Source of the DNA: a virus
Length of the DNA: 20,755 nt
Direction: 5' to 3' (one strand)
Virus record (IMG/VR): IMGVR_UViG_3300027801_000200
Location: 1 to 20,755 of that record
The notes under the pieces: generated by a model
What the model was told of the DNA's origin: nothing
The model's input: the letters and a program-made list of their open reading frames with translations, nothing else
Database searches by the model: none
In this document: piece by piece, positions 2,611-19,643 of the stretch
How positions within the stretch are numbered: the stretch's first letter is position 1
How the letters are laid out: each line of letters begins with the position of its first letter
Translations under genes and position numbers: made by a program

Positions 2611-3099
2611 TTAGAATTCTAAGATAGCGTAATCATAAGATAATGTCAATGTGATTTCTGCTGGGTCATTTGAACTCCAATCTAAATCATTAAACACTGC
2701 ATTGTTGATAAATGCACCTTTAAGAGTCCATTGTTCAATCTTATCACCAACTGGTCCTAATAGATATATTTGTACATCTTTCTTATAGAAATCTGCATAT
2801 CCATCTCTACCTGTAATAGATTCATGTGATGTTCTCACCCATTCCATTACTGATTGAGCTCCACTTGGAACGATTGGGTCAAATAATGTAATTTCTACAT
2901 CTTGCCATTCTCCCTTACCTTTTAATTTACGTTTAACGTTAATGTGGTCTAGGGTAATAGTTTCAAACTGAATTGAAGGTCTATTTGCTGTTTTTATTAA
3001 ATATGAAGGGATACCATCGATTTCCATGATGAATCTATTCTTCATCTTTGGTTCGAAATTGGTATAAAACATATCGTTAAATTCTAATACTTCTGCCAT
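2611..3099 (-). CDS. Tail tube protein (T4 gp19-like)
   Basis: At 162 residues this matches the length of T4 gp19 (163). The N-terminus FYTNFEPKMKNRFIMEIDGI, followed by SYLIKTANRPS, is the typical start of T4-like tube monomers. The middle has the expected beta-strands, WQDVEITLFDPIVPSGAQSV, and the end, ITLTLSYDYAILEF, is the closing strand of the family. The protein polymerises around the tape measure to form the inner tube inside the sheath. The ATG at 3099 has a good AAGGAG site 9 nt upstream. It follows the sheath gene by 54 nt, the conserved gp18-gp19 order, and is followed by a strong terminator, consistent with a high-copy structural gene with its own mRNA end. Confidence 0.95.
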   Translation of the reverse strand: MAEVLEFNDMFYTNFEPKMKNRFIMEIDGIPSYLIKTANRPSIQFETITLDHINVKRKLKGKGEWQDVEITLFDPIVPSGAQSVMEWVRTSHESITGRDGYADFYKKDVQIYLLGPVGDKIEQWTLKGAFINNAVFNDLDWSSNDPAEITLTLSYDYAILEF

Positions 3100-3153: not shown

Positions 3154-5520
3154 TTATGCCGTAAAAGATGCCCCAGTCGGTAAGATGTTGAAATCTAACA
3201 CGATGAATTCGGCAGTTTTAGTTGGTTGTAAGAAAATCTGTCCAGCCAATATGTTTCTGTCGATTACATCTGGTGTGTTATTACTCTCATCCATTACCAC
3301 CCTAAATGCATACAATCCTTGTCTTTGTTGTATTCCTTCTAAATAAGGATTCACAGTATTTAAGAATTTACCTCTTGTTGTAGAAGTATTTTGTTCAAAT
3401 ACTAAGTATCTTGATGTAGAAGCTATATACTTCTTAACTTTAATCATCAATCTTCTAACATTGATTCTATCAAGTGCCGATGCTTTATCTTGAAGTGTCT
3501 TTTGTCCAAATGCTACGATACCTTCTCCAGGGAACTGAGCGATTGGATTAATTTTTCCTTCATATAATTCATCTCTTTCAGCGTGTGTTAATCTGTTTAG
3601 TACAGATATAGCACCTACTATACCACCTCTATTTAAACCTGCTGGTGCAAACCATTCGGCTGCAACTGCATCGTTAGAAGCATATATCCCAGGCATCAAT
3701 ACTGATGGTGGAACTGAAATAAGTTTATTTGTTCTTGAATCAATTGTTTTAACCCATGGGTAGTATGTACCTACGTAGTTAGAATCAATTGCTGCACCTT
3801 GTTCGATTGCTTGTGATATAGTATCAGAAGTTGTTTGTGATGTTCCACTATTATAAGTTACACCCACAACGTCTCCGATGAAGAATGCATCTTCTCTAGC
3901 TTCACACATATCAACAACTTTATCAAATACATAAGAATGATGTCTTCTTACGATTCCAGGTACAGATACTAAATTAATATCAAAATCATCTGGGTTAGAT
4001 ACTGAGTTGATTGCTTTTACATATGCAACAGAACCAACAGAGGTTGAAGTGGATAAATCAAATCCTTGTGAGTTTCCACTACCAAAGTTTGCAGATGAAC
4101 CAGCCAACGCGATTTCAGTAGTTGGAGATATACCATCGAATCCATTTTGGAATCCAACAACAAATTGTCTTTTGTTTATATCTTTTGATAAAGAACCAGT
4201 CAATTCATATCCAAAGGCTTTAGTACCACCTTTTATAGTTACAGTTCCATCAAAAGCAAATACAGTATTACTACCTTGTGTTGCTGATGCAGGAATTACA
4301 GATAAGTAATTGTTATTATCTATCTTAACTTGTACAGTTTCTAAATCAATACCACTATAAGCAACTGCTTTAGAAGCGTTGTTTACATCAGAACCAGTAG
4401 AGAATATTACTGCAGGTACATCAGATTCAGATAAACTACCACCCATATAAATTGGATTGTAATATTTAGCGTGTGCAAATGGTCCAGCAACAAGAGGGAA
4501 TGAACCTTCAGCTGAAGTTTCAACTCTTATATACTTAGAACGATTTGGATAATCACCATTTTCTGTTTGTTTACCGTTTGCATCAATTACTAAGTTTCTA
4601 TCACCAATTACTTTTTTGATGTAGTTAGGAGATGCAGGGTCTAAGTTAACATTGTTATATGTTTCTAATACAGTTTTTCTTTTATCAGTATCTTTATACT
4701 CTCTAATAGCTACTGCGAAAGTTGCGTAATCAGTAGAGTTGTTAGAACCAGCTGGTTTAACGTTAAAGATAGATACTTTATATTCTTTATTATAGTTAGA
4801 ACCATCACCAAGAGTATGTATCTTGAATAGGTTATGTCTTTCTCCTGAAATCAATTGAGATTGAATCCATGGAGTTGAAGCGTTTTTAATATCTTGAGTA
4901 ATGTCTTGATTAGCTAATTCAACTACTTCAAGTCCATCAAATCCTGCAGTAACTTGAGTTGCTGCTTCACTTTCAAAATAATTATATACATAAGAACTTT
5001 TAATACCTCTTGGGTTTGTTCCGAATACATCACCTAAATCATTTCCCTTAGTAGGGTCAATAGATGAAGATATTACAGAAGAACCACTTACTGTGATATT
5101 AAATTCCGATGAACTTACTGGTCCTTGTGTTAAAGTAGAACTAGCTAAACCACCTACTCCTAAGTGGGTTTCAAATAATGTTCCTATTACAGTTCCATGT
5201 TTTGTTGAATCTGAGCTACTAATTGCTATAGCTACAGGTACTGTTTGTGTGTAACCACCTGTTTGACCGACACGAACAATAGTTACTGTTCCTGCTTCTC
5301 TTAGGTAGTTTTGTACGGTATATCCTGTATAGTAAGAACCATCAGGTGTACCGAAAATCTGTTCGAATTCCGATTGGGTGTTTACAACGGTTGGTACGAA
5401 GGCTGGGCCCTTTTTGAAAGGTCCTATTACAGCTGCTCCTATTTCTCCAATACCTTGTGATAAGAAAGAAAGGTCATTTTCTCTCGTAAATACTCCAGGT
5501 GATACAATTTTTTCTGCCAT
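3154..5520 (-). CDS. Contractile tail sheath protein (T4 gp18-like)
   Basis: The 788-residue protein has both conserved ends of the T4-type sheath family. The N-terminus contains VSPGVFTRENDLSFLSQG, then AAVIGPFKKGPAFVPTVV and FEQIFGTPDG (residues about 8-60). The C-terminal domain contains RGGIVGAISVLNRLT, QFPGEGIVAFGQKTL and INVRRLMIKVKKYI (residues about 625-700), and ends in strands that interlock sheath subunits. Sheath hexamers stack around the tube and contract to drive it into the host. It is longer than T4 gp18 (659 residues). The extra length lies in the variable middle, rich in Ser, Gly and Thr, which in this family forms surface domains. The ATG at 5520 has an AAGGAG site 10 nt upstream. 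Tail tube follows immediately, as expected. Confidence 0.96.
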   Translation of the reverse strand: MAEKIVSPGVFTRENDLSFLSQGIGEIGAAVIGPFKKGPAFVPTVVNTQSEFEQIFGTPDGSYYTGYTVQNYLREAGTVTIVRVGQTGGYTQTVPVAIAISSSDSTKHGTVIGTLFETHLGVGGLASSTLTQGPVSSSEFNITVSGSSVISSSIDPTKGNDLGDVFGTNPRGIKSSYVYNYFESEAATQVTAGFDGLEVVELANQDITQDIKNASTPWIQSQLISGERHNLFKIHTLGDGSNYNKEYKVSIFNVKPAGSNNSTDYATFAVAIREYKDTDKRKTVLETYNNVNLDPASPNYIKKVIGDRNLVIDANGKQTENGDYPNRSKYIRVETSAEGSFPLVAGPFAHAKYYNPIYMGGSLSESDVPAVIFSTGSDVNNASKAVAYSGIDLETVQVKIDNNNYLSVIPASATQGSNTVFAFDGTVTIKGGTKAFGYELTGSLSKDINKRQFVVGFQNGFDGISPTTEIALAGSSANFGSGNSQGFDLSTSTSVGSVAYVKAINSVSNPDDFDINLVSVPGIVRRHHSYVFDKVVDMCEAREDAFFIGDVVGVTYNSGTSQTTSDTISQAIEQGAAIDSNYVGTYYPWVKTIDSRTNKLISVPPSVLMPGIYASNDAVAAEWFAPAGLNRGGIVGAISVLNRLTHAERDELYEGKINPIAQFPGEGIVAFGQKTLQDKASALDRINVRRLMIKVKKYIASTSRYLVFEQNTSTTRGKFLNTVNPYLEGIQQRQGLYAFRVVMDESNNTPDVIDRNILAGQIFLQPTKTAEFIVLDFNILPTGASFTA

Positions 5521-5597: not shown

Positions 5598-5906
5598 TTA
5601 TACTTCAGATGTTGTTAAAATTTCTTCTTTTTTTTCTTTTTCTTCTGTTGGAGTGAATATGTTAGTAGCTGGATCATAATTACCATCACCATATTTGCCA
5701 TTCAATCCCTTAAACATTGTTTGTTCTTTTTCGACTAAACCTGAATGTTGAGATATTAAATCTTTTTCAACTTGTTCGAGTTCATCTAGTCTTCTTTTCT
5801 TTTCTATTTGAAGTTGTCCTAATCTTGTAAAAAGATTTGCAACATCTTGTCTTAGTTGTTGTACTTCTTGTACTTCTTCTTTTGTAAACTTAATTGTTTT
5901 CGCCAT
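5598..5906 (-). CDS. Small coiled-coil virion-associated protein of unknown function
   Basis: The 102-residue protein has a long helical region, residues about 8-65, dominated by Glu, Gln, Lys and Leu with heptad-like spacing (EEVQEVQQLRQDVANLF, LGQLQIEKKRRLDELEQVEK). Then comes a short YGDGNYDPATNIFTPT element and an acidic Lys/Glu tail. I recall similar small proteins ending in a KYGxGxxDxxTGxFTP-like motif in T4-like aquatic phages, without an assigned role. It stands between the Hint-domain protein and the sheath, with its own upstream promoter-like motif and no clear Shine-Dalgarno sequence. A structural or assembly-chaperone role is possible, but no residue pattern proves it. Confidence 0.75.
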   Translation of the reverse strand: MAKTIKFTKEEVQEVQQLRQDVANLFTRLGQLQIEKKRRLDELEQVEKDLISQHSGLVEKEQTMFKGLNGKYGDGNYDPATNIFTPTEEKEKKEEILTTSEV

Positions 5907-5964: not shown

Positions 5965-5982
5965 GTTAAATTATTATTTAAC
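5965..5982 (-). repeat. AT-rich inverted repeat spanning the Hint-protein stop codon
   Basis: GTTAAAT and ATTTAAC form a perfect 7-bp stem with a 4-nt loop, and the TAA stop at 5978-5980 is inside one arm. The bases that follow on the coding strand (GTTTATTAAAAAAC) lack a clean U-tract. It may be a weak terminator or an mRNA 3' structure, but in such AT-rich DNA it could be chance. Confidence 0.3.
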
Positions 5983-7288
5983 TAACCGTAAATGTTAAAG
6001 TTGCAGAGTATGCACTTACCAAACCATTTGTTGAATATTGTCTTACTCTTGCATATCGTGTACCCGTTCCTATATCAAAAGTACCACTATCTGTTGTTGT
6101 TACAACTGAAGTTGCTGACCATAGTGTTTGACTAACTAATGTTGATGAGAAATCTGAATTATTATCTATCTGTACATCATATACATCATTTGTACCATCT
6201 CCTGACCAAGAAAGTGTAAGAGTACCATTCGTCCAAGCTAATGAAGTTGGTACAGCACCTGCAGTTTCATCAGTATGTGAATTACCACCTTTATTGTGAG
6301 TTATATATCCATTAACTAAATAAGTATCATTTGTTTCAACATCAATAGATACTATCTCTGATGTTTGATTTATAATATCAATAGATATTACATCAATTTC
6401 AGTAATAACACCAGAAACTTCTTTAATTAATTTATCGTTTGTAGTAATGTTAAACATTTCTTTGAATCTATATTCTCCATCATTACCATCTTTAACTAAC
6501 ATTGGGTGTTCTGCAGTTGCAGTTATTTCACCATCATTAATATCATAATGTCTACCTGAAAAAGAATATACTAAATTTACAACTTCCACATCTTGTGCAG
6601 TTGTTGTTAATGAATCGGTTGACCAATCTAAGAAACCACTTTCTTCAGTTCCTAATCCTCCAATTGAAAATCCTCTCAATACATCTCCTTCTTCTAAATC
6701 ACCAACTTCTACAATAGTACCATCTGATAATGTTACAGGTGAATCTATTGTTAAACATAATGCGGTTGAGTTACCATCATATGAATCTACAGCATAAACA
6801 GTTTTTGTTCTAGCTGAATTGTAATTTGTGGCATGATCATTAAAACCATCTGCAAAAGTTCCACTAAGTGTATGTGATTGTGCACCTAATAAAGTTGTTT
6901 GGTCACTTGCTCCTTGTGGATTTACTCCACCAACTGTAATTACAGCGGATACATCTTGATTTGCAGCAATACTTAAAAAACCAGCAGTAGATGCTGAAGA
7001 GTTGTAAGTAGGAGTAACTGACCATGTGAAATTTTGATATCTAGATGAAATTGATCCAAACTTAGAACCAGCTACGGTAAAACCAAGTGTATAAGTTTCA
7101 TTTGTAGCTTCAACTGCATAAGTATATCCATCAATTGAACCAACGGTATCGATTCCATAATCATCTAATTTTACAATAGTTCCTGCTGAACTATTTATTG
7201 CGTTTAATGATACATTTGCACCTTGTGTAATACCGGTTGCTCCTGCTAAATTATTTAAACTAAGTGTATCTCCTGAGACTCTTGCCAT
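5978..7288 (-). CDS. Tail structural protein with internal Hint (intein-like) domain and C-terminal Fn3-like domain
   Basis: The 436-residue protein has three parts. Residues 1-177 are a Ser/Thr/Gly-rich beta region like phage surface proteins. Residues 178-332 (bases 6757-6293) are a Hint domain. It begins with Cys178 in CLTIDSPVTLSDGTIVEVGD (block A) and carries TAEH at 258-261 in ATAEHPMLV (block B). It ends with VNGYITHN, His331-Asn332 (block G). At about 155 residues it is mini-intein sized, with no room for a homing endonuclease. The residue after Asn332 is Lys, not Cys, Ser or Thr, so canonical splicing is not expected; a cleaving bacterial intein-like activity is more plausible. Residues 347-435 (WTNGTLTLSW, YDVQIDNNSDF, YARVRQYS) resemble a fibronectin type III domain. 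An AGGAAAG site lies 8 nt before the ATG. The upstream neighbour is the glycosyltransferase. Confidence 0.85.
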   Translation of the reverse strand: MARVSGDTLSLNNLAGATGITQGANVSLNAINSSAGTIVKLDDYGIDTVGSIDGYTYAVEATNETYTLGFTVAGSKFGSISSRYQNFTWSVTPTYNSSASTAGFLSIAANQDVSAVITVGGVNPQGASDQTTLLGAQSHTLSGTFADGFNDHATNYNSARTKTVYAVDSYDGNSTALCLTIDSPVTLSDGTIVEVGDLEEGDVLRGFSIGGLGTEESGFLDWSTDSLTTTAQDVEVVNLVYSFSGRHYDINDGEITATAEHPMLVKDGNDGEYRFKEMFNITTNDKLIKEVSGVITEIDVISIDIINQTSEIVSIDVETNDTYLVNGYITHNKGGNSHTDETAGAVPTSLAWTNGTLTLSWSGDGTNDVYDVQIDNNSDFSSTLVSQTLWSATSVVTTTDSGTFDIGTGTRYARVRQYSTNGLVSAYSATLTFTVS

Positions 7289-7300
7289 TGTATATCTTTC

Positions 7301-8299
7301 CTATATATTATAAATATAAACTAATTCGGTTATCCACCCATCCTTATCTGTGAAATTTTCTTTCATAAATGATTTTAAAGATAAAAACCATTGATTTTTT
7401 TCTTCGTAAGGAGTATTGATTAACTGAGTATAAATATCACTAAATTCTTTTTTAGATGAAGCTCTGTAAGGATATTTAAAATCTTTACACCAAGTTTTGT
7501 GTAAAATTGGTAATTTACCATAATCTACTGCCTCAAATATACCATATCCAAATGGTTCATTATTAAAACATGAATGAGATATACCCCAATCCATATTATA
7601 GAATACATCTCTATATTCGGATTTATAATGATACATTTTCATTTTACGAGTATCCATTTTTAATCCATTTTTCCAAAGAGTATTAAACTCACTTGAATTA
7701 GTAAATACATATGATGGTAACCCATCCAAGTAACGAGGATTCTTTCTACCCTCGGTTCTTGCTGCAAATCCTATTCTCTTAGAATCAGTTAATGGTAAGT
7801 TTTGTTTAAATTCGTAAAAATTAGGTATATTTTTATTTTTTATCAATATATCAAATAAACCGACCCATATAGAATGAGTTGATATATCATTTATTTCAGT
7901 TTCCCACTTTGAATCCATATATGGGTGTTGTACAAATGAACTATCATTTCCCATTGATGATTTTAATATATGATCTACTGAATTATGTAATATGTTTGAA
8001 TGTATTTTGTGTTTGTTCTCTTCTATTACCTTCATTGGAGTATAATGTCCATGTAATATGTTGATTCTTCTTGCACCATTACACAATTCTTCAAATTTAT
8101 CAATATCATCACCGTGCCAATGGGCTTCTATTGGAAATTCGTAATCTTCATGTCCTTTTGGTTTGTTTCTATGTAAAAGAAGTATAGGTTTTACATCTAA
8201 TTTGGGTGCAATTAACTCTAACCATAAATTTACCCAAGTATCAGTACCAGCATTTACCCAAGGTCCTCCACCAGTAGTATAATATACATCATACATCAT
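7301..8299 (-). CDS. GT-B-fold glycosyltransferase (GT4-like)
   Basis: The 332-residue protein fits a GT-B glycosyltransferase of about the usual length. The N-terminus holds a Gly-rich loop, YTTGGGPWVNAGTDTWV (residues 7-23), of the type that contacts the nucleotide-sugar in GT4-like enzymes. The C-terminal half has RIGFAARTEGRKNP (175-188) and the EX7E signature EPFGYGIFE (Glu248 to Glu256), followed by AVDYGKLPILHK. These bind donor phosphate and sugar in retaining GT-B enzymes. There is no signal peptide or membrane segment, so it should act in the cytoplasm. The start, ATG ATG, lies 3 nt after the stop of the 455-aa fibre gene, with no evident promoter, so the two are likely co-expressed. 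The substrate is unknown. Placement among fibres suggests virion-protein glycosylation, but modification of host surface glycans is equally compatible. Confidence 0.8.
   Translation of the reverse strand: MMYDVYYTTGGGPWVNAGTDTWVNLWLELIAPKLDVKPILLLHRNKPKGHEDYEFPIEAHWHGDDIDKFEELCNGARRINILHGHYTPMKVIEENKHKIHSNILHNSVDHILKSSMGNDSSFVQHPYMDSKWETEINDISTHSIWVGLFDILIKNKNIPNFYEFKQNLPLTDSKRIGFAARTEGRKNPRYLDGLPSYVFTNSSEFNTLWKNGLKMDTRKMKMYHYKSEYRDVFYNMDWGISHSCFNNEPFGYGIFEAVDYGKLPILHKTWCKDFKYPYRASSKKEFSDIYTQLINTPYEEKNQWFLSLKSFMKENFTDKDGWITELVYIYNI
7309..7318 (-). promoter_or_regulatory. TATTTATA promoter-like motif embedded in the end of the glycosyltransferase gene
   Basis: The coding strand reads TATATTTATA, 21-30 nt upstream of the ATG at 7288. 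It lies inside the last codons of the glycosyltransferase and encodes part of its YIYNI C-terminus. The fixed distance to the next start, despite the coding overlap, argues that the motif is functional. Confidence 0.5.
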
Positions 8300-9819: not shown

Positions 9820-12800
9820 TTAAGATATTTTACTTTTCAATTCCTCTATTTGTATTTGTTGTTCTTTAATAGCTTCTATAAGTAATCCAGTAAGTTTGGC
9901 GTAATCTACACCCTTAAATCCATTATCTCTATCAATTACCAACTGAGGAAGTACTTTTTCTACATCTTGTGCAATTACACCAACATTTGGTAATGTTTGT
10001 TGTAATATATCAGCGTTTGAATTCCAATCCCAAGTTACACCTTTTAATTGTTGTACTTTTTCTATTGGGTTTGAAATTAATTCAATGTTATCTTTTAATC
10101 TTTCATCTGAAGATGCATATGCTACAATATCTCCACCTACGTTCAATGCTCCACTTATACCAACTCCACCAGTCACTATAACTGCTCCGGTTGTTTTAGT
10201 TGTAGAAGCGGTTGTGTTAGAGAATGTTTTAGCTCCACTTAATGTTTGTGTTCCACTTAAGTGTGCCGTATTTGTTGATAAGTATGCATCTGCGATAACA
10301 CTACCTTGCCATACACCACTTGAAATTGTTCCAACTTCTGTGATATCTAAAGCATTTATATCAGCTTTTGTTTGGTCAGCAGTTGCAGAAGTTTCAATAC
10401 CATCTAATTTAGTATTATCGGCTGAAGTAAAGTTTATCTGTGTTAATCCACCATCTCCTACTGAATATGTAGTGTTGGTATTAGTAGTATATGAAGGTAA
10501 ACCAAATGAACCATCGTGTTTTAGGAAATGTCCTGCAGTTCCTGCTGATGGAACGAAATTACTATTTCCAGTTCCAACAAGAGTTCTTATTTGAGCTGCT
10601 GTTTGGTCAGCGGTTGCTGATGCTTCAATAGCATCTAATTTAGATTTTAGAGTAGTTGTAAAGTTTTGTTGTGTTAAACCACCCGCACCAACAGTAGCTA
10701 ATTGAGAAGTTAATGCAACTGTTCCTGTTGTATCTGGTAATGTTATTGTTCTATCAGCTGTTACACTTCCTGCAAGTAATGTTACTTCATATGCATCTGC
10801 CGCGTTTCCTTCAAATATCACACCGTTACTTGTTGATACAGTTGCTACATTATTTGTAGTTGTTGTACCGGTTACGGTTATACTACCAGGGAATGTGATT
10901 GTATCAGATGAATCACCGATTGTAGCGGCACCACCTAAAGAAGCGTTTAATGCAGATTTAACATCGGCCGTTGTTGTAGTATTTGTGTTGGCCGTCATAT
11001 CATCTGCAACTAAATCAATAGTTCCATCTCCATCTACATATGTAGCAGATATTCTTGTTTCGGTGTTTCCACTAAACATAGCACCTACTATATCTTGTAC
11101 TGCTTCAGTTGATAACTGAGTATTTGTATCCGTATTAGTAGTATATGAAGGTAAACCAAATGAACCATCGTGTTTTAAGAAATGTCCTACTGTTCCAGCT
11201 ACTGGTACGAAATTACTATTTCCAGTTCCTACTAAACTTCTTATTTCAGCTGCTGATTGGTCAGCGGTTGCTGAGGTTTCAATTCCACTTAATTTAGTGT
11301 TTAAAGCTGAAGTGAAGTTAACATCCGATTGTGTTGCTACTACGAAATCAATATCACCAGTTGTATCTTGATAAGTTACAGTTATTCCTGTCTCAGTTCC
11401 ACCTAACATTCCACCAACGAAATCTTCAACTTGTTCTTGTGATAGTTGAGTGTTTGTATCCGTATTAGTAGTGTATGAAGGTAAACCAAAAGTACCATCG
11501 TGTTTTAGGAAATGTCCTACTGTACCAGCTACCGGTACAAAGTTACTATTTCCAGTTCCTACTAAAGTTCTTATTTCAGCTGCTGATTGGTCAGCCGTTG
11601 CTGATGCTTCAATAGCATCTAATTTAGATTTTAGAGTAGTTGTAAAGTTTTGTTGTGTTAAACCACCCGCACCAACTGAGTACGTTGTGTTTGTATCCGT
11701 AGAAGCAATTGTACCTCCAGCAGAAATAGTAACATTTGTACCAGCGGTTAAAGCAGCAACTACATTAGTTGAATCCGTTACATCTGCTGATGCTTCGATT
11801 GCATTTAGTTTTGAATGGTCAGCATCTGTAAATGTATTTGAATCTGTACCAGCTTCAACGGCTGCTACAATTTCTGCATTTGATTGATCTGCCGTAGCAC
11901 TTGCTTCAATTGCATTTAGTTTTGAATGGTCAGCATCTGTAAAGTCATTGGTAGTTAATCCACCATCACCAACTGAATATGTTGTATTGGTATTGGTAGT
12001 ATATGAAGGTATTCCGAATGTTCCGTCATGTTTTAAGAAATGTCCTGCTGTTCCTGCTGATGGAACGAAATTACTATTTCCAGTTCCTACTAAAGTTCTA
12101 ATCTCTGCTGCTGTTTGGTCAGCCGTTGCAGAAGTTTCAATACCATCTAATTTAGTATTATCTGCCGATGTAAAGTTAATTTGAGTTAATCCCCCATCAC
12201 CAACAGTAGCTAATTGAGAAGTTAATGCAACTGTTCCTGTTGTATCTGGTAATGTATAAACTCTATCAGCAGTTAATCCACCGGCCTTTAATGTTCCTTC
12301 GAAATCATCAGCAACTGTTCCTTCAAATATAATTCCATTAGAAGTACTAAGTGTTTCAATGTTTTCTGTTGTTGTTGTTCCAGTTACTACTAAATTACCA
12401 GCAACTGTAATTGTATCAGATGAATCACCGAATGTTGCAGTTCCACCTAAAGAAGCGTTTAATGCAGATTTAACATTTGCTGTATCCGTTACATCTGCTG
12501 ATGCTTCGATTGCATCTAATTTAGATTTTAGAGTAGTTGTAAAGTTTTGTTGTGTTAAACCACCAGCTCCTACTGAGTACGTTGTATTTGTATCCGTATA
12601 ATTTCCACTATGTAAATTAGTAGCACCTTGGTCTGTTGTCCAATCAATATGTTCGTTTCCTACAAAACCAGTTGTACTATCATGTGTTATTTGTACTGAA
12701 CCACTAACAGTTCCACCAGGTAATGAAGTTAATACATTTGCTGCATCTGTTACATCTGCTGATGCTTCAATAGCATCTAATTTCGATTTTAGAGTAGTTG

Positions 12801-14571
12801 TAAAGTTTTGTTGTGTTAAACCACCCGCACCAACTGAATAAGTCGTGTTTGTATCCGTAGAAGCAATTGTACCTCCAGCAGAAATAGTAACATTTGTACC
12901 AGCGGTTAAAGCAGCAACTACATTAGTTGAATCCGTTACGTCTGCTGATGCTTCGATTGCATCTAATTTAGTATTATCGGCTGATGTAAAGTTAATTTGT
13001 GATAACTCTCCATCTTGAATAGAATATGTTGTATTCGTATTTGTTGTATAAGAAGGTAAACCAAATGTACCATCGTGTTTTAAGAAATGTCCTGCTGTTC
13101 CTCCAGCAATTCCTAAATTTGTTCTTGCAGTTCCAGCATTTGATAAATCAGATAAGTTACTTGCTTTTGCTAATTTTGTTCCTACTGTTGTTGTTAATGC
13201 AACTACATCAGAATCTCCGTTTGCAATACTTGCAGAAATTTCTAATAATGTATCATAAGCTGCAGGTGCTCCACCTAGTAAATCAGATACTTCTCTTTGT
13301 ACATAAGCAGTTGTTGCTATTTTAGTAGAGTTATCATTATCAGCTTGTGTTGGTGCAACTGGATTACCAGTTAATGTTGGTGAAGCTAAATTAGCTTTTA
13401 AATCCAATGCAGTTTGACCAGCAGTTGAAACTGGTTTTAAAGCATCTGTTGTATTATCTACATTACCTAATCCAATATCACCCTTTGTTAATTCTCTTGT
13501 TGCAACAGTTCCGTTTGCATCTGTTACAAGTCCACTCGTGTTCGTTGTTATATTAATATCTAAATCTGATATTATAGTTGCCCCTGTCAATGCAGTTGTA
13601 TCGATATCTACAGCATCACCAGCTAAGTTAGTTGGTAAGGTATAATTTACTGTTCCTGCAGCATCAACTCCGATTGTAGTTCTAACACCACCAGCAGTTG
13701 TATCATCTAAAATAGTTTGTGCGAATGTTGAAGCAACTTGGTCTGAACCTGATACTACTCCTGCTGGAAGAGAAGTTAATACATTTGCTGCATCTGTTAC
13801 ATCGGCACCTGCTTCAACTCCTGTGGTTGCACCAACTGTTAAACTTGCTGCTGTTCCACTAATATTTGTACCAACTAATGCTGATGGTGTTCCTAAAGCT
13901 GGTGTTACCAATGTTGGTGAACTTGATAATACTACATTTCCTGTTCCTGTTTTAGTTGTTACTCCTGTTCCACCTTGATTAACAGCTATCGTAGTTCCTT
14001 GCCAAGTACCAGTTCCAATTGTTCCAACTGATGTAATTTGTGTTTGAGCTGCATCTACACTTAAACTGTGAGTTGTACCTTCACCACTTGTTGCGGCGGT
14101 TGAAGTTATTCCAGTTCCACCAGTAATTGTTCCTACATAATCACCAGTTGTGTCGGTTGTTAATACTACTGAATTTGCTTGTATGGTTGCAACTCCCCCA
14201 GCTGCTATTACTACATCTCCACTTATATTTCCAAATACACTATCTTCTAAATTAGAAAAAGTTACTTTCTTTTCTGTTCCAGCATCACTTATAACTAAAT
14301 TATCTCCTTGTGCAATCGTAGCTCCACCAAGAGAAGATAGTGCATCTATATTAATTGCCGATACTCCAGTTAAACTTGAACCATCTCCTACAAATGAACC
14401 AGTAAATGATCCAGAATAATTTACCGCTGGTTGAATAGATTGGTCAACTCCACTTGAATTTAAGGTTTTTGTTTCAAGAGTACCGTTTTCTACGGTTAAG
14501 CTTATTAAATTTCCATTCTCATCAGATGGAAATTGAAGTGAGCCTGAAATTTTGGGGTTATGTATAATCAT
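9820..14571 (-). CDS. Giant repetitive tail fibre protein with C-terminal S74-type intramolecular chaperone
   Basis: The 1583-residue fibre starts MIIHNPKISGSLQFPSDENG with GDGSSLTG at residues 62-69. It contains tail-fibre blocks such as GTGTWQGTTIAVNQGGTG and ASPTLTGNPVAPTQADN. The centre repeats two modules. One is ADQxAAEIRTLVGTGNSNFV followed by AGHFLKHDG and PSYTTNT (four full copies and one partial). The other is GAGGLTQQNFTTTLKSKLDA (four copies). A VTGTTTT module occurs twice. Residues about 1486-1583 match the peptidase S74 domain: SSDERLKDNI, then WDWNS, GVIAQDVEKVLPQLV and a final helix. Such domains trimerise and fold the fibre, then cleave themselves off. Ser1488 and Lys1493 have the Ser-x4-Lys spacing of the reported catalytic dyad. 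The mature fibre would therefore be about 1490 residues. Receptor specificity cannot be read from sequence. Confidence 0.9.
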   Translation of the reverse strand: MIIHNPKISGSLQFPSDENGNLISLTVENGTLETKTLNSSGVDQSIQPAVNYSGSFTGSFVGDGSSLTGVSAINIDALSSLGGATIAQGDNLVISDAGTEKKVTFSNLEDSVFGNISGDVVIAAGGVATIQANSVVLTTDTTGDYVGTITGGTGITSTAATSGEGTTHSLSVDAAQTQITSVGTIGTGTWQGTTIAVNQGGTGVTTKTGTGNVVLSSSPTLVTPALGTPSALVGTNISGTAASLTVGATTGVEAGADVTDAANVLTSLPAGVVSGSDQVASTFAQTILDDTTAGGVRTTIGVDAAGTVNYTLPTNLAGDAVDIDTTALTGATIISDLDINITTNTSGLVTDANGTVATRELTKGDIGLGNVDNTTDALKPVSTAGQTALDLKANLASPTLTGNPVAPTQADNDNSTKIATTAYVQREVSDLLGGAPAAYDTLLEISASIANGDSDVVALTTTVGTKLAKASNLSDLSNAGTARTNLGIAGGTAGHFLKHDGTFGLPSYTTNTNTTYSIQDGELSQINFTSADNTKLDAIEASADVTDSTNVVAALTAGTNVTISAGGTIASTDTNTTYSVGAGGLTQQNFTTTLKSKLDAIEASADVTDAANVLTSLPGGTVSGSVQITHDSTTGFVGNEHIDWTTDQGATNLHSGNYTDTNTTYSVGAGGLTQQNFTTTLKSKLDAIEASADVTDTANVKSALNASLGGTATFGDSSDTITVAGNLVVTGTTTTENIETLSTSNGIIFEGTVADDFEGTLKAGGLTADRVYTLPDTTGTVALTSQLATVGDGGLTQINFTSADNTKLDGIETSATADQTAAEIRTLVGTGNSNFVPSAGTAGHFLKHDGTFGIPSYTTNTNTTYSVGDGGLTTNDFTDADHSKLNAIEASATADQSNAEIVAAVEAGTDSNTFTDADHSKLNAIEASADVTDSTNVVAALTAGTNVTISAGGTIASTDTNTTYSVGAGGLTQQNFTTTLKSKLDAIEASATADQSAAEIRTLVGTGNSNFVPVAGTVGHFLKHDGTFGLPSYTTNTDTNTQLSQEQVEDFVGGMLGGTETGITVTYQDTTGDIDFVVATQSDVNFTSALNTKLSGIETSATADQSAAEIRSLVGTGNSNFVPVAGTVGHFLKHDGSFGLPSYTTNTDTNTQLSTEAVQDIVGAMFSGNTETRISATYVDGDGTIDLVADDMTANTNTTTTADVKSALNASLGGAATIGDSSDTITFPGSITVTGTTTTNNVATVSTSNGVIFEGNAADAYEVTLLAGSVTADRTITLPDTTGTVALTSQLATVGAGGLTQQNFTTTLKSKLDAIEASATADQTAAQIRTLVGTGNSNFVPSAGTAGHFLKHDGSFGLPSYTTNTNTTYSVGDGGLTQINFTSADNTKLDGIETSATADQTKADINALDITEVGTISSGVWQGSVIADAYLSTNTAHLSGTQTLSGAKTFSNTTASTTKTTGAVIVTGGVGISGALNVGGDIVAYASSDERLKDNIELISNPIEKVQQLKGVTWDWNSNADILQQTLPNVGVIAQDVEKVLPQLVIDRDNGFKGVDYAKLTGLLIEAIKEQQIQIEELKSKIS
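10484..12132 (-). repeat. 137-bp fibre-module direct repeats (four copies)
   Basis: Copies at 10484-10620, 11138-11274, 11468-11604 and 11996-12132 are all exactly 137 bp and start with GTAGTATATGAAGG or a close variant. They encode the AAEIRTLVGTGNSNFVP...HFLKHDG...PSYTTNT module. A partial fifth copy begins near 13043 and diverges after about 13106. Spacing between copies varies because other modules are interleaved. Confidence 0.85.
11600..12962 (-). repeat. 205-bp near-identical direct repeat pair
   Basis: Segments 11600-11804 and 12758-12962 have the same length and differ at only about five positions by direct comparison. They encode a LTQQNFTTTLKSKLDAIEAS module together with the VVAALTAGTNVTISAGGTIA stretch. 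Such near-identity suggests recent duplication or gene conversion within the fibre gene. Confidence 0.85.
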
Positions 14572-15290: not shown

Positions 15291-18200
15291 TTATTTTTCT
15301 ATTTTTCTTTTCAATTCATCAACTTCTTTCGATAAATCCTTAATACCCTCAATTAATAATGAAACCAATTTATCATATTTAACTGCTTTATATCCATCTT
15401 CACGAGTTTGTACTAATTCTGGTAAGATTTTTTCAATTTCTTGAGCAATTACACCATAATCTTTACCTTTATAAATATGTTGTTTTTCAGTATTCCAATC
15501 AAAAGAATACCCTCCAATTTTATTTATTTTTTCAAGTGGGCTGGTAATTGGTAAAATATTGTTTTTTAACTCTCTATCTGATGATGAAAATGCAATAATA
15601 TCATCGGTTGCTTTTATAGTTCCAGTTACATGAATATCATCTGATATATTAAATCGTGTATTTGCATGATTCCAAGTAATTGATTCATTAGCTCCTGCTA
15701 TTTCGATACCTGCACCATCGGCGGTTGCTGAATCTGTTGAACCACTTGCAACTGTTATTAATTTATCTTCTATCTTAAGGTCTGAAACATTTATTGCAAC
15801 AGAATCACCAAGTACAGTTAAGTTTCCACTAATTACAACATTACTTAATGAAGCACTTGCGAAAGTTACATCTGAAGTTGTTGTTATTCCTTGATTAGAA
15901 GCTCCTAAGTATCCCCATTGTGTTGCTGAGATTGTGTTTGTACCAATAGCTGCTATTTGAGTAGCCTCACCACTTGTTAATGCAACTCCTTGTACACTTC
16001 CAACAGTTAATGAATCAACATTACCACTTAAATCACCACCTGCTGCTATTTGAACAGAACCACTAAAGATTCCTCCTTTAATATTTGCAGTTATATTATT
16101 TGTAGTTCTTATTAAATCAATATTTGCAGTATCACCGAACGTTAATACATTTTCATGAGTATCACCTTCTAAAGTATCTATTCTATCATCAAGTGATGTA
16201 CTTACAGCAGAGAATCCAGTAACTGAATTTATTTGTACTTGAGATGAACCACTTACTGTTCCTGCTGGAAGTACTAATTCAACTCCTTCTTGGAAGTGTA
16301 CTGAACCAGTATCTAATGATAAACTTCTATTTGTATCAATAGTACCACCACCACTTAAACCTTTACCACTGCCAAGAGTAATTGATGAGTGGTCAATATG
16401 TTCGTTTGCTACAAAGTTTGTAGTTGAATCATGGTCTACTTGAGAAGAACCACTAATTACACCACCTTTTAAGTTTGCAGTTAATGTATCTCCAGTTAAA
16501 ATCATATCAACATTAGTTGTATCAGATACTGCTAAATTTGTTCCACTTGAAATATCAATTGTTCCAGTTAAGAATGAACCACTTACAGATTCAATTGCAG
16601 TTAATCTTTGGTCTTGTACTCCTTGTTCAGTTGATATAGAACCTGTTTCAGTTGATAAGAAACCTAATCTTGAATCTTGTACTGCAGTTGCAGTAATTGC
16701 AGATGCACTATAAGAGTTTAATGATTCGTTAGATACTGTTGAGTTTGCTAATTGAGCTGAACTACTAACAGTACCAGTTGGTAAATGGTCAATTACTTGT
16801 TGAGAACCTGAAACTGTTCCTGAAGGTGCACCAGCTGCTGAAACTCCATTTACAAAGTGAGCTGAACCAGTATCAATTGCAATAACTATATTACCAGTAT
16901 TACCATATGCACCAGCATCACTTGTTCCTTCTTCTGTGTGTATTAAACCTGTCGTAGTTGGTGATATTGTTGTTGTAGAGTTTACTGCTGTAATATCTCC
17001 AGCACCTGCGGCAACTAAAGCATCATTTACAGCTTTTGTTGTTGGTACAGAGTTAGGGTCATCTGCAATAGAAGCAGATACTGCATAAAATGCTGATGTT
17101 CCTAGTGTTCTTTTCTTAAATAATCCTCCTACGTTAAATAATGCATCGTAATCAGATGAACCACCCGATGCAACACTTGAAAGTGTTAATGTAGTGAATG
17201 TTGGTGAGTCACCAGTTTGTAAACCAGTATCAACATCAGTATTTGCTCCATTAATTGTAGCTCGTACAGTACCTTGTGTTGGTGAACTAAATGTAGAACC
17301 ACTAATTATTCCTCTCTTATCTAAAGAAGAACTAAATCTTGTTTCTGAATAGTATAAATTAGTACCTTCTGTTAAATCACTTGTAGTTGATGTTCCTAAG
17401 AAAGAACCACTATGTACATTATCTGCATCAGTTTTTAATTTTACCAATGCATCTGTATATCCAACCTTTGATGTGTTGGCTATAATAGCAGATGCTTGTC
17501 CACCAGTTATAGTTGTTGGTATTCCTGTAATACTTGAATAAGTTACTTGAGATGAACCACTAATTACTGTTTCAGCATCTAATTTTGTTTTTACTCTTGC
17601 ATCTGTATAATAAAGGTTTGTATTTTCGGATAAGTTTGCGGTAGTTGATGTTCCTAAGAATGAACCACTATGTACCGCATCTGCATCTAATTTTGTTTTT
17701 ACATTACTATCGAAATTAGTTATTGTATTTGCATTTACTTGTACAGAACCTGATATTAATCCTACATTATCTATTTGTTTTCTTACATCAGCTATCCAAC
17801 CAGTTGTTTGGTCAGCATCTACTTGAGATGAACCACTAACTATTCCATTACCAATTGATTCATATCTTGAATCTAAATCACCAGTAACTTGAGATGAACC
17901 ACTAATTACTGTTTCGGCATCTAATTTTGTTTTTACTCTAGCATCTGTATAATAAAGGTTACCAGCTTCGGTAACTTGGTCGGTATCAATACCTGTTAGT
18001 TCCCCACCTTCTCCTTTAAATCCTACTGATGAACTTACTTTTGCATCTAATACGAAGGAAGTTGTATTGTGATCCCATTGTAATGATTTACCAGCACCAT
18101 CTATCTCGATACCAGCACCATCAGCAGCTGCTGAATCGGCTGAACCACTTGCAACCGTTATTAATTTATCTTCAATTCGTAATTCTGTTGTTGAGATTTC

Positions 18201-19643
18201 TGTTGCATCTCCTAAAACAGTTAAATCTCCTGTCACCGTAACATTACCAGTAAACGAACCAGTATTAAATGTTACATCTGATGTTGTTGATAAATTTTGA
18301 TTTATATTATCAAGTTGAGTTTTGTTTGAATGTGAATGAGATACATTACTTAGTAAATCTAATCTACTATCTATTGATGTAGAAAGTGGCCCTTCTATTG
18401 TATCTAATCGAGTATCAACTGAAGATGAAAATGTGGTAAAAGTTTCGTTTGATGATGAAAGAATTGTACTTCCACCTAATATTTGTATTGAACCACTTAC
18501 TACACCTCCTTTTAAGTTTGCGGATATACTACCATCATTGATAATTATATCAACTTGATTAGTATCAGTTGATGCAGAAACTATATCGTTATTTATTCCA
18601 CTAAGTGATGAATAATTTACTTGAGATGAACCACTAACTATTCCGTTACCAATTGATTCGTAAGTGGAATTTAGAGAAGAGGTTATTACTTCTACTTGGT
18701 CTAATCTACTATCTAAAGATGATGTTACTGTTTCTAAAATTACACTTTTTGCTTCTTCTATATCTAATCTACTATCAAGTGAAGAAGTTACTGTTTCTAA
18801 AATTACACTTTTTGCTTCTTCTATATCTAATCTACTATCGTGAGATGCTGATGTTAGTTCTAAGTTATCTAATCTACCATCTTGTGAACCAGTATCAGTT
18901 TCTAATTGACCAACTCTACTATCAAGTGATGAAGTAGTTGATTCTAAGTTATCTAATCTATTATCTTGTGAACCAGTATCAGTTTCTAATTGACCAATTC
19001 TACTATCTAAAGATGATGTTACTGTTTCTAAAATTACACTTTTTGCTTCTTCAACATCTAATCTACTATCTAAAGATGATGTTACTGTTTCTAAAATTAC
19101 ACTTTTTACTTCTTCTATATCTAATCTACTATCTACTGATTGTGAGTAATTAGTAAAATTTGTTACTGAGGATGAAAGTATTGTACTACCAGGAAGTGAT
19201 ATAGATTCAATTGAAGCACTTACTACTCTTATATCTAAATATCTTTTTGATGGAGTACCTAAAGTAAATACTGCATCTGCAGTTGGGAGGAACGAACCAC
19301 TAAATGATGAATTAATACTAACATTATCGGATGAATTATCTCCATCTCCTAAGAAAATATTACCGGCCAATACAATGTTTCCACCGATGGTTGCATCTCC
19401 TGTTGTTTCTATACTCGATGCATAGATATCTCCACTTGCCGATATATGTGAACCTGTAATATCTGACAATAAATGAAGTGAACCACTATTTGATTCATTT
19501 AGTTTTACAAGTATCTTAGAGCTCGTGTTTGAGCCACTACCATCACCAATAACAATAGTTTCAAGTGATGTATTATAGAACAATTCAGATTCCTGAAGTG
19601 ATGTGAATGAAGTTCCTCTTCTTAATTTTAGTATTGCAGCCAT
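15291..19643 (-). CDS. Long tail fibre with coiled-coil shaft and C-terminal S74-type intramolecular chaperone
   Basis: The 1450-residue fibre begins AAILKLRRGTSFTSLQESEL. Residues 171-326 are a coiled coil of nine units ending in SxD or SQD (units such as SRLDIEEAKSVILETVTSSL), 21 or 14 residues long. The rest is beta-rich fibre sequence with about a dozen SGSxQV motifs, three NLYYTDARVKTKLDAETVIS-type blocks, and two copies of an IEDKLITVASGS...GAGIEI module. Residues about 1351-1450 are an S74-type domain: SSSDRELKNNI, FDWNTE, YGVIAQEIEKILPELV, then a helical end. This domain drives trimerisation and is normally removed by autocleavage at its Ser-Asp. Ser-x4-Lys spacing is present (Ser1355, Lys1360). 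The Shine-Dalgarno sequence is weak (AGGAA, spaced about 11 nt). A promoter-like motif at 19668-19678 sits after the terminator at 19751-19780. Confidence 0.9.
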   Translation of the reverse strand: MAAILKLRRGTSFTSLQESELFYNTSLETIVIGDGSGSNTSSKILVKLNESNSGSLHLLSDITGSHISASGDIYASSIETTGDATIGGNIVLAGNIFLGDGDNSSDNVSINSSFSGSFLPTADAVFTLGTPSKRYLDIRVVSASIESISLPGSTILSSSVTNFTNYSQSVDSRLDIEEVKSVILETVTSSLDSRLDVEEAKSVILETVTSSLDSRIGQLETDTGSQDNRLDNLESTTSSLDSRVGQLETDTGSQDGRLDNLELTSASHDSRLDIEEAKSVILETVTSSLDSRLDIEEAKSVILETVTSSLDSRLDQVEVITSSLNSTYESIGNGIVSGSSQVNYSSLSGINNDIVSASTDTNQVDIIINDGSISANLKGGVVSGSIQILGGSTILSSSNETFTTFSSSVDTRLDTIEGPLSTSIDSRLDLLSNVSHSHSNKTQLDNINQNLSTTSDVTFNTGSFTGNVTVTGDLTVLGDATEISTTELRIEDKLITVASGSADSAAADGAGIEIDGAGKSLQWDHNTTSFVLDAKVSSSVGFKGEGGELTGIDTDQVTEAGNLYYTDARVKTKLDAETVISGSSQVTGDLDSRYESIGNGIVSGSSQVDADQTTGWIADVRKQIDNVGLISGSVQVNANTITNFDSNVKTKLDADAVHSGSFLGTSTTANLSENTNLYYTDARVKTKLDAETVISGSSQVTYSSITGIPTTITGGQASAIIANTSKVGYTDALVKLKTDADNVHSGSFLGTSTTSDLTEGTNLYYSETRFSSSLDKRGIISGSTFSSPTQGTVRATINGANTDVDTGLQTGDSPTFTTLTLSSVASGGSSDYDALFNVGGLFKKRTLGTSAFYAVSASIADDPNSVPTTKAVNDALVAAGAGDITAVNSTTTISPTTTGLIHTEEGTSDAGAYGNTGNIVIAIDTGSAHFVNGVSAAGAPSGTVSGSQQVIDHLPTGTVSSSAQLANSTVSNESLNSYSASAITATAVQDSRLGFLSTETGSISTEQGVQDQRLTAIESVSGSFLTGTIDISSGTNLAVSDTTNVDMILTGDTLTANLKGGVISGSSQVDHDSTTNFVANEHIDHSSITLGSGKGLSGGGTIDTNRSLSLDTGSVHFQEGVELVLPAGTVSGSSQVQINSVTGFSAVSTSLDDRIDTLEGDTHENVLTFGDTANIDLIRTTNNITANIKGGIFSGSVQIAAGGDLSGNVDSLTVGSVQGVALTSGEATQIAAIGTNTISATQWGYLGASNQGITTTSDVTFASASLSNVVISGNLTVLGDSVAINVSDLKIEDKLITVASGSTDSATADGAGIEIAGANESITWNHANTRFNISDDIHVTGTIKATDDIIAFSSSDRELKNNILPITSPLEKINKIGGYSFDWNTEKQHIYKGKDYGVIAQEIEKILPELVQTREDGYKAVKYDKLVSLLIEGIKDLSKEVDELKRKIEK
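18666..19136 (-). repeat. Tandem coiled-coil repeat of 63- and 42-bp units in the fibre gene
   Basis: Four 63-bp units (21 aa, core RLDIEEAKSVILETVTSSLD) and five 42-bp units (14 aa, such as SRIGQLETDTGSQD) alternate in blocks. In protein order the lengths are 21, 21, 14, 14, 14, 14, 21, 21, 14. All are multiples of seven residues, so every unit keeps the heptad register. Confidence 0.9.

Follow-up and report, generated by a model that had tools for sequence, protein, structure and literature searches.

The window, a 20,755-nucleotide stretch of a viral IMG/VR record (IMGVR_UViG_3300027801_000200), includes a gene of the tail module whose virion protein contains an integral, apparently non-mobile Hint domain of a recurring phage type with Lys in the +1 slot, here called an HNK Hint. 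We put at about even the chance that this protein processes itself through Cys178 and Asn332 with Lys333 as the acceptor, a reading drawn from sequence, a predicted structure, and analogy with published systems. The gene (5978..7288, minus strand) specifies 436 residues, and its translation, family alignment, and AF2 model divide the product into an N-terminal domain, the Hint domain, a Lys-Gly-Gly linker, and an Fn3-like domain. The beta-rich N-terminal virion domain (residues 1–177, 6758..7288) forms the upstream flank of the Hint domain (residues 178–332, 6293..6757). A flexible Gly-Gly-Asn-rich linker (residues 334–341, 6266..6289), with a pLDDT under 50, leads to the C-terminal domain (residues 342–436, 5981..6265). 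The catalytic motifs are likewise on the minus strand. The block A nucleophile Cys178 is residue 1 of the Hint (6755..6757), the block B TxxH motif is Thr258-Ala-Glu-His261 (6506..6517), block G is His331-Asn332 (6293..6298), and Lys333 occupies the +1 position (6290..6292). Cys178 to Asn332 make up 155 residues, covering exactly 6293–6757. The first-pass annotation had listed these residues and a spacing of about 155, and each lies in the translation where it had been placed.

The 436-residue protein matches the intein N-terminal profile TIGR01445 with an E value of 3.4e-4 (21.5 bits, below the curated cut-off of 24.5) and PF14890 with an E value of 0.07 (13.4 bits, below the curated cut-off of 35.8). 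Among PDB sequences, the MjaKlbA intein is matched with E=0.009 by the single query and with E=7e-4 by the family profile, which also matches the Tetrahymena BIL2 with E=1.2e-3. Curated profile cut-offs are a detection convention, and the fold is the stronger test. The AF2 model of the Hint protein, built from 60 homologs with a pLDDT of 83, aligns with BUBL1 BIL2 (6y75) over 141 residues with a Z score of 19.8 and an rmsd of 1.9 Å in VIA-align. The Ssp DnaB inteins (Z 18.5), the Clostridium BIL 2lwy (17.8), and Hedgehog (17.6) follow, and dozens of inteins and Hedgehog match with Z of about 12–18. BIL2 is also top-ranked by Foldseek. Residues 178–332, for which sequence alone is borderline, are thus by their predicted structure a real Hint domain, as the first-pass annotation had held. 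The fold, the block A nucleophile, TxxH, and the block F and G motifs place the domain in the HINT superfamily, the fold match identifying the superfamily rather than a particular member. The N-terminal domain model (pLDDT 80.6, pTM 0.77) gives Ig-like Foldseek matches in the PDB, all weak. The C-terminal part was expected to be Fn3-like; the model is indeed beta-rich, and the sequence matches to Fn3-type receptors and titin are weak (E 0.07–0.6), so that an Fn3-like fold is weakly indicated.

The 146 homologous loci in IMG/VR reduce to 104 distinct proteins. Leu177 (the −1 residue), Cys178, His331, Asn332, and Lys333 are invariant in all 104, while their codons vary: Lys333 is encoded by AAA in 97 members and AAG in 7, His331 by CAC or CAT, and Asn332 by AAT or AAC. 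Hence, selection acts on the protein. In the family alignment His261 is invariant and Thr258 is conserved in at least 90%, and Cys178 is the sole cysteine of the whole protein in 81 of the 104 members. A 60-row alignment has a mean column identity of 53%, and beyond Asn332 only four of its columns are invariant, namely Lys333 and three in the Fn3-like domain. Because the peptide NGYITHNK biased the initial scan, the counts were repeated with queries lacking it. The N-terminal domain alone retrieved 74 loci, all of which carry the Hint and have Lys at +1; no Hint-less allele was found among these loci, which come from one collection. A Hint-only alignment query, trimmed before the C-terminal end, again found matches exclusively in the same protein. 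No full-length relative was found in the phage collection.

The surroundings of the gene are equally stable. Directly upstream is a 332-residue ORF of unknown function (7301..8299, minus strand; 58/60 relatives), and directly downstream a 102-residue ORF (5598..5906, minus strand; 59/60), followed by the tail sheath gene (3154..5520, minus strand; phrog_23, E=3e-70), which is present in all 60 relatives. The tail tube gene (2611–3099) and a T4-type baseplate protein gene (1740–2504) have clear Pfam/PHROGs matches. The order of 332-residue ORF, Hint protein, 102-residue ORF, sheath, and tube is conserved in 58–60 of 60 relatives. Judged by these Pfam/PHROGs matches, the window is a piece of the structural region of a tailed phage, and the downstream sheath gene assigns the Hint gene to the tail module, in agreement with the tail structural context proposed earlier. 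With the gene fixed in this module, the loci and alignments show no sign of mobility of the window Hint. Elsewhere in the window, two very long, repetitive fibre-like genes lie on the minus strand (9820–14571 and 15291–19643), and their C-termini (SSDERLKDN... and SSDRELKNN...) resemble S74 self-cleaving chaperones by eye.

Neither the invariance of the +1 Lys nor its recurrence in unrelated phage proteins had been seen in the first-pass annotation. Some genomes with a window-type gene hold further Hint proteins, among them tandem arrays of three Hints, the last of which ends in VHNK-stop. A query taken from this last Hint and cut before His-Asn retrieved Hints in several other architectures. 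Lys is at +1 in 17/17 of the array-terminal virion-type Hints found with it, a comparable intein within the same set has Ser, and a second query, also cut before His-Asn, gave Lys in 22/22. After reduction to 70% non-redundancy, 34 of 39 array-terminal virion-type Hints have Lys, three have Ala, and two have Thr, and the Lys-ended ones share a median identity of 30%. In contrast, none of 12 inteins from phage enzymes or portals has Lys at this position, which is Cys, Ser, or Thr (Fisher p 4e-8, kinship ignored). The HNK Hint is hosted by tail-hub J proteins, at the N-terminal (L294) or C-terminal (L300) side, by collagen-like fibres (L302), by DUF4815 and phrog_358/877 tail proteins (L293, L261), and by Pro-rich proteins (L257); in a J-like fibre (L263) it immediately precedes the S74 chaperone domain. 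Several proteins end in HNK-stop, and in these the Lys is kept although no downstream domain is present to choose it. With separate queries, one Hint protein of phage NCTB was found to end in HNKVD-stop and that of the huge phage LR756508 in HNKH-stop. No relatives of these two Hints were found in viral contigs, the single cellular match in genome contigs is a bacterial Hint without His-Asn, and a Hint alignment including the distant phages was too divergent as a scan query. A control search for bacterial Hints gave few comparable ends, with Cys, Ser, Ser, Thr, Asp, and Asp at +1. At +1, internal Hints of the tandem arrays carry Ala, Arg, Asn, or Phe, which, together with the Ala and Thr in 5/39, argues that some relatives manage the chemistry without Lys. 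In a quick tree, a strongly supported branch separates some Lys Hints from others, so that the Lys is ancient or arose two or more times; on this tree, whose long branches make it unreliable, the +1 Lys needs 7 changes against a shuffled mean of 17.5, at least two being forced by starred branches.

Several other Hint layouts were noted during these searches. The triple-Hint proteins (L231:3725–6019, plus strand; L233:3957–6329, minus strand; L250, L253, and similar) have a common N-terminal domain and three Hints in a row. The inner His-Asn is followed by the Cys of the next Hint within about 2–13 residues (HN-AP-C, HN-R...PC), the last Hint ends in HNK-stop, and the whole looks like a Hint relay or a polyprotein as judged from its layout. 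Six C-terminal phage Hints without a +1 Lys (L082, L084, L085, L230, L232, and L244) all have a Lys elsewhere in a tail of 7–29 residues, for example HNAPVDQKH, HNAVMVAKK, HNTDMTAQAEKT, and HNAKGGAPPG. L281–L291 join an HNK Hint through a Gly-rich linker to a second, C-terminal, Cys-led Hint-like half without His-Asn. The Achromobacter phage JWF has a tail-fibre-cluster protein with a Hint lacking His-Asn (L306:2077–3528, plus strand); two genes downstream of it, an anaerobic sulfatase-maturating enzyme is annotated. The huge phage LR756508 carries both a portal-like gene with several inteins having Ser and Thr at +1 (L245, 142500–149500) and the virion-type Hint ending in HNKH-stop.

The limits of the unit can be read in the L261 protein, for which seven Hint-less homologs were found, from Rhizobium phage RHph_I1_18 (44% identical), Stenotrophomonas phage Moby, and five more. 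The +1 residue of an intein is part of the host protein. All seven homologs have the motif Asp-Pro-[IVL]-Ala-Gln, and the L261 junction reads Gly-Ser-Gly-Asp-[Cys...His-Asn-Lys]-Pro-Ile-Ala-Gln. This comparison indicates that the inserted unit ends after Lys and that Lys belongs to the Hint unit. As it concerns one Hint-bearing protein, with the Asp in a Gly/Asp-rich linker, the evidence is supporting, not conclusive. Together with the recurrence in other hosts, it suggests that the +1 Lys is a property of the Hint unit and not of the window protein.

Class 1 protein splicing requires Cys, Ser, or Thr at +1. Class 1 inteins such as Ssp DnaB (1mi8) share the Hint fold and blocks A, B, F, and G with the window Hint, but they are sporadic and mobile and have one of these three residues, like the phage enzyme and portal inteins checked, at the position where all 104 family members have Lys. 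Class 2 and class 3 inteins lack Cys or Ser at Hint residue 1, which here is the invariant Cys178. The Hog domain of Hedgehog is C-terminal and has no His-Asn end, whereas the window Hint has 104 residues after His331-Asn332. The tail or tail-cluster proteins of phage NCTB and of Erwinia/Dickeya jumbo phages also carry Hints, and the HNKVD-stop end of one NCTB protein is a further likeness; however, these Hints are C-terminal, and in the others the +1 residue is Ala or Thr and a Lys follows later in a tail of 7–10 residues. Cultured phages with a tail Hint include Dickeya phage AD1 and the Erwinia pEa_SNUABM phages. A-type BILs (for example 2lwy from Clostridium thermocellum), which autocleave and to some extent splice in the absence of a nucleophilic +1 side chain, have Cys1, TxxH, a terminal His-Asn, and no Cys, Ser, or Thr at +1, as does the window Hint. 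They are known from bacterial proteins that are not conserved, in hypervariable regions (PMC7765530), whereas the phage Hint has an invariant +1 Lys and is part of a conserved structural gene with fixed neighbours. The best fold match, which likewise lies between independently folded domains, is BIL2 of Tetrahymena thermophila BUBL1 (6y75, 6tmm), in which, as we propose for the window protein, a Lys amine is the reported acceptor, there forming an isopeptide. BUBL1 is a ciliate protein with ubiquitin-like flanks, whereas the phage tail protein has beta-rich and Fn3-like ones, only weak Ig-like Foldseek matches being found for its N-terminal domain; BIL2 is not known to use an invariant +1 Lys as its acceptor.

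We propose that, after folding, an N–S acyl shift would pass the Leu177 carbonyl to Cys178, and that the Lys333 amine would then accept the N-terminal domain from Cys178. The accepting group could be the alpha amine, freed by cyclisation of Asn332, or the epsilon amine. The former corresponds to the proposal for A-type BILs, which have His-Asn and no +1 nucleophile, that a Cys thioester forms, Asn cyclises, and the freed amine attacks the thioester (PMC4031507); the latter corresponds to the splicing with a Lys epsilon-amine isopeptide reported for BUBL BIL2 (PMC8616854). The Hint would be freed by Asn332 cyclisation and then lost. Processing would connect the N-terminal domain to Lys-Gly-Gly-Fn3, the new linkage being either a peptide or an isopeptide, and in a side reaction some chains would simply be cleaved.

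Self-processing at one junction at least is very probable, in view of the full catalytic set, the absence of Cys, Ser, and Thr at +1, and the conservation of the protein in the tail module; the first-pass annotation had been sound in proposing it. Its further idea, cleavage owing to the lack of a +1 nucleophile, fits less well, since the position is not simply devoid of a nucleophile: it holds an invariant Lys, which accompanies the Hint from protein to protein. By analogy, acyl transfer to Lys333 explains more than such cleavage, and BUBL BIL2 provides a published isopeptide precedent (PMC8616854). That Lys333 is functional in some way is likely, and that it serves as an acyl acceptor in any form has slightly less than an even chance; it could alternatively be an active-site residue that affects polarity or tunes Asn cyclisation. 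The HNK-stop proteins speak against an acceptor, as transfer in them would add no more than a single Lys to the upstream part, which is of little use. These proteins retain both Asn and Lys, suggesting that the unit works as a whole, and the main purpose in these proteins may be the release of the upstream virion domain from the Hint.

Next to the Lys-acceptor proposal, the strongest rival is an uncoupled cleavage, in which the Cys178 thioester is hydrolysed and Asn332 cyclises independently, giving three pieces without Lys as acceptor. A His-Asn end without Cys, Ser, or Thr at +1 is the layout of A-type BILs, in which cleavage dominates (PMC4031507, PMC7664689), and the solved BIL 2lwy resembles the AF2 model closely. 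We nonetheless regard this rival as somewhat unlikely, because it leaves the invariant +1 Lys unexplained across unrelated proteins whose Hints are about 30% identical at the median, and because the host gene is a fixed part of the tail module rather than a hypervariable protein. Transfer might instead occur between chains, the Cys178 thioester being attacked by an amine of a neighbouring chain, either another Lys333 or another protein, to yield covalent staples or anchoring. Hedgehog and BUBL do transfer to outside acceptors, BIL2 has been termed a 'single-ubiquitin-dispensing-platform' that conjugates to other substrates (PMC8616854), and the fibre, hub, and tail proteins hosting related Hints are usually multimeric. 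Such cross-linking is nevertheless quite improbable, as Asn332 would be dispensable for it and yet is invariant, and no acceptor has been identified.

Two further readings would deny the Hint a processing role or make it mobile. An inert Hint that has lost catalysis and acts as a spacer or interaction domain has a parallel in phage tail Hints without His-Asn, such as that of JWF, but is very improbable for the window protein, whose catalytic residues are all invariant within an otherwise diverging domain. We give least credence to an ordinary mobile intein with scarless splicing. Its fold and motifs are alike, but its strict form is contradicted by the Lys in place of Cys, Ser, or Thr, the 74 loci found with the N-terminal flank include no empty allele, and the relatives found with the Hint-only query are all in the same protein, between whose domains the Hint sits. 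A broader version of the Lys-acceptor proposal is unlikely on present sequences and analogies: that HNK Hints form a distinct mechanistic class, found widely among phage virion proteins, that uses the epsilon amine of the +1 Lys in place of Cys, Ser, or Thr and links the upstream domain by an isopeptide bond to the downstream part, or else to an adjacent chain, without ATP or enzymes.

In a search of open-licence PMC papers, we found no description of phage virion Hint domains or of a +1 Lys. The recurrence of the Lys-ended Hint points to a mechanism, not yet described, by which phages may cleave, ligate, or cross-link their virion proteins. Small, self-contained parts for forming isopeptide bonds would be a potential use. 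For phage biology, the finding would imply that virions naturally use a Lys-based (isopeptide) chemistry to splice or cross-link proteins, or else that Lys has a new role in self-cleavage. It hints at a maturation step of tail hubs and fibres that virion proteomics without a branched-peptide search would miss.
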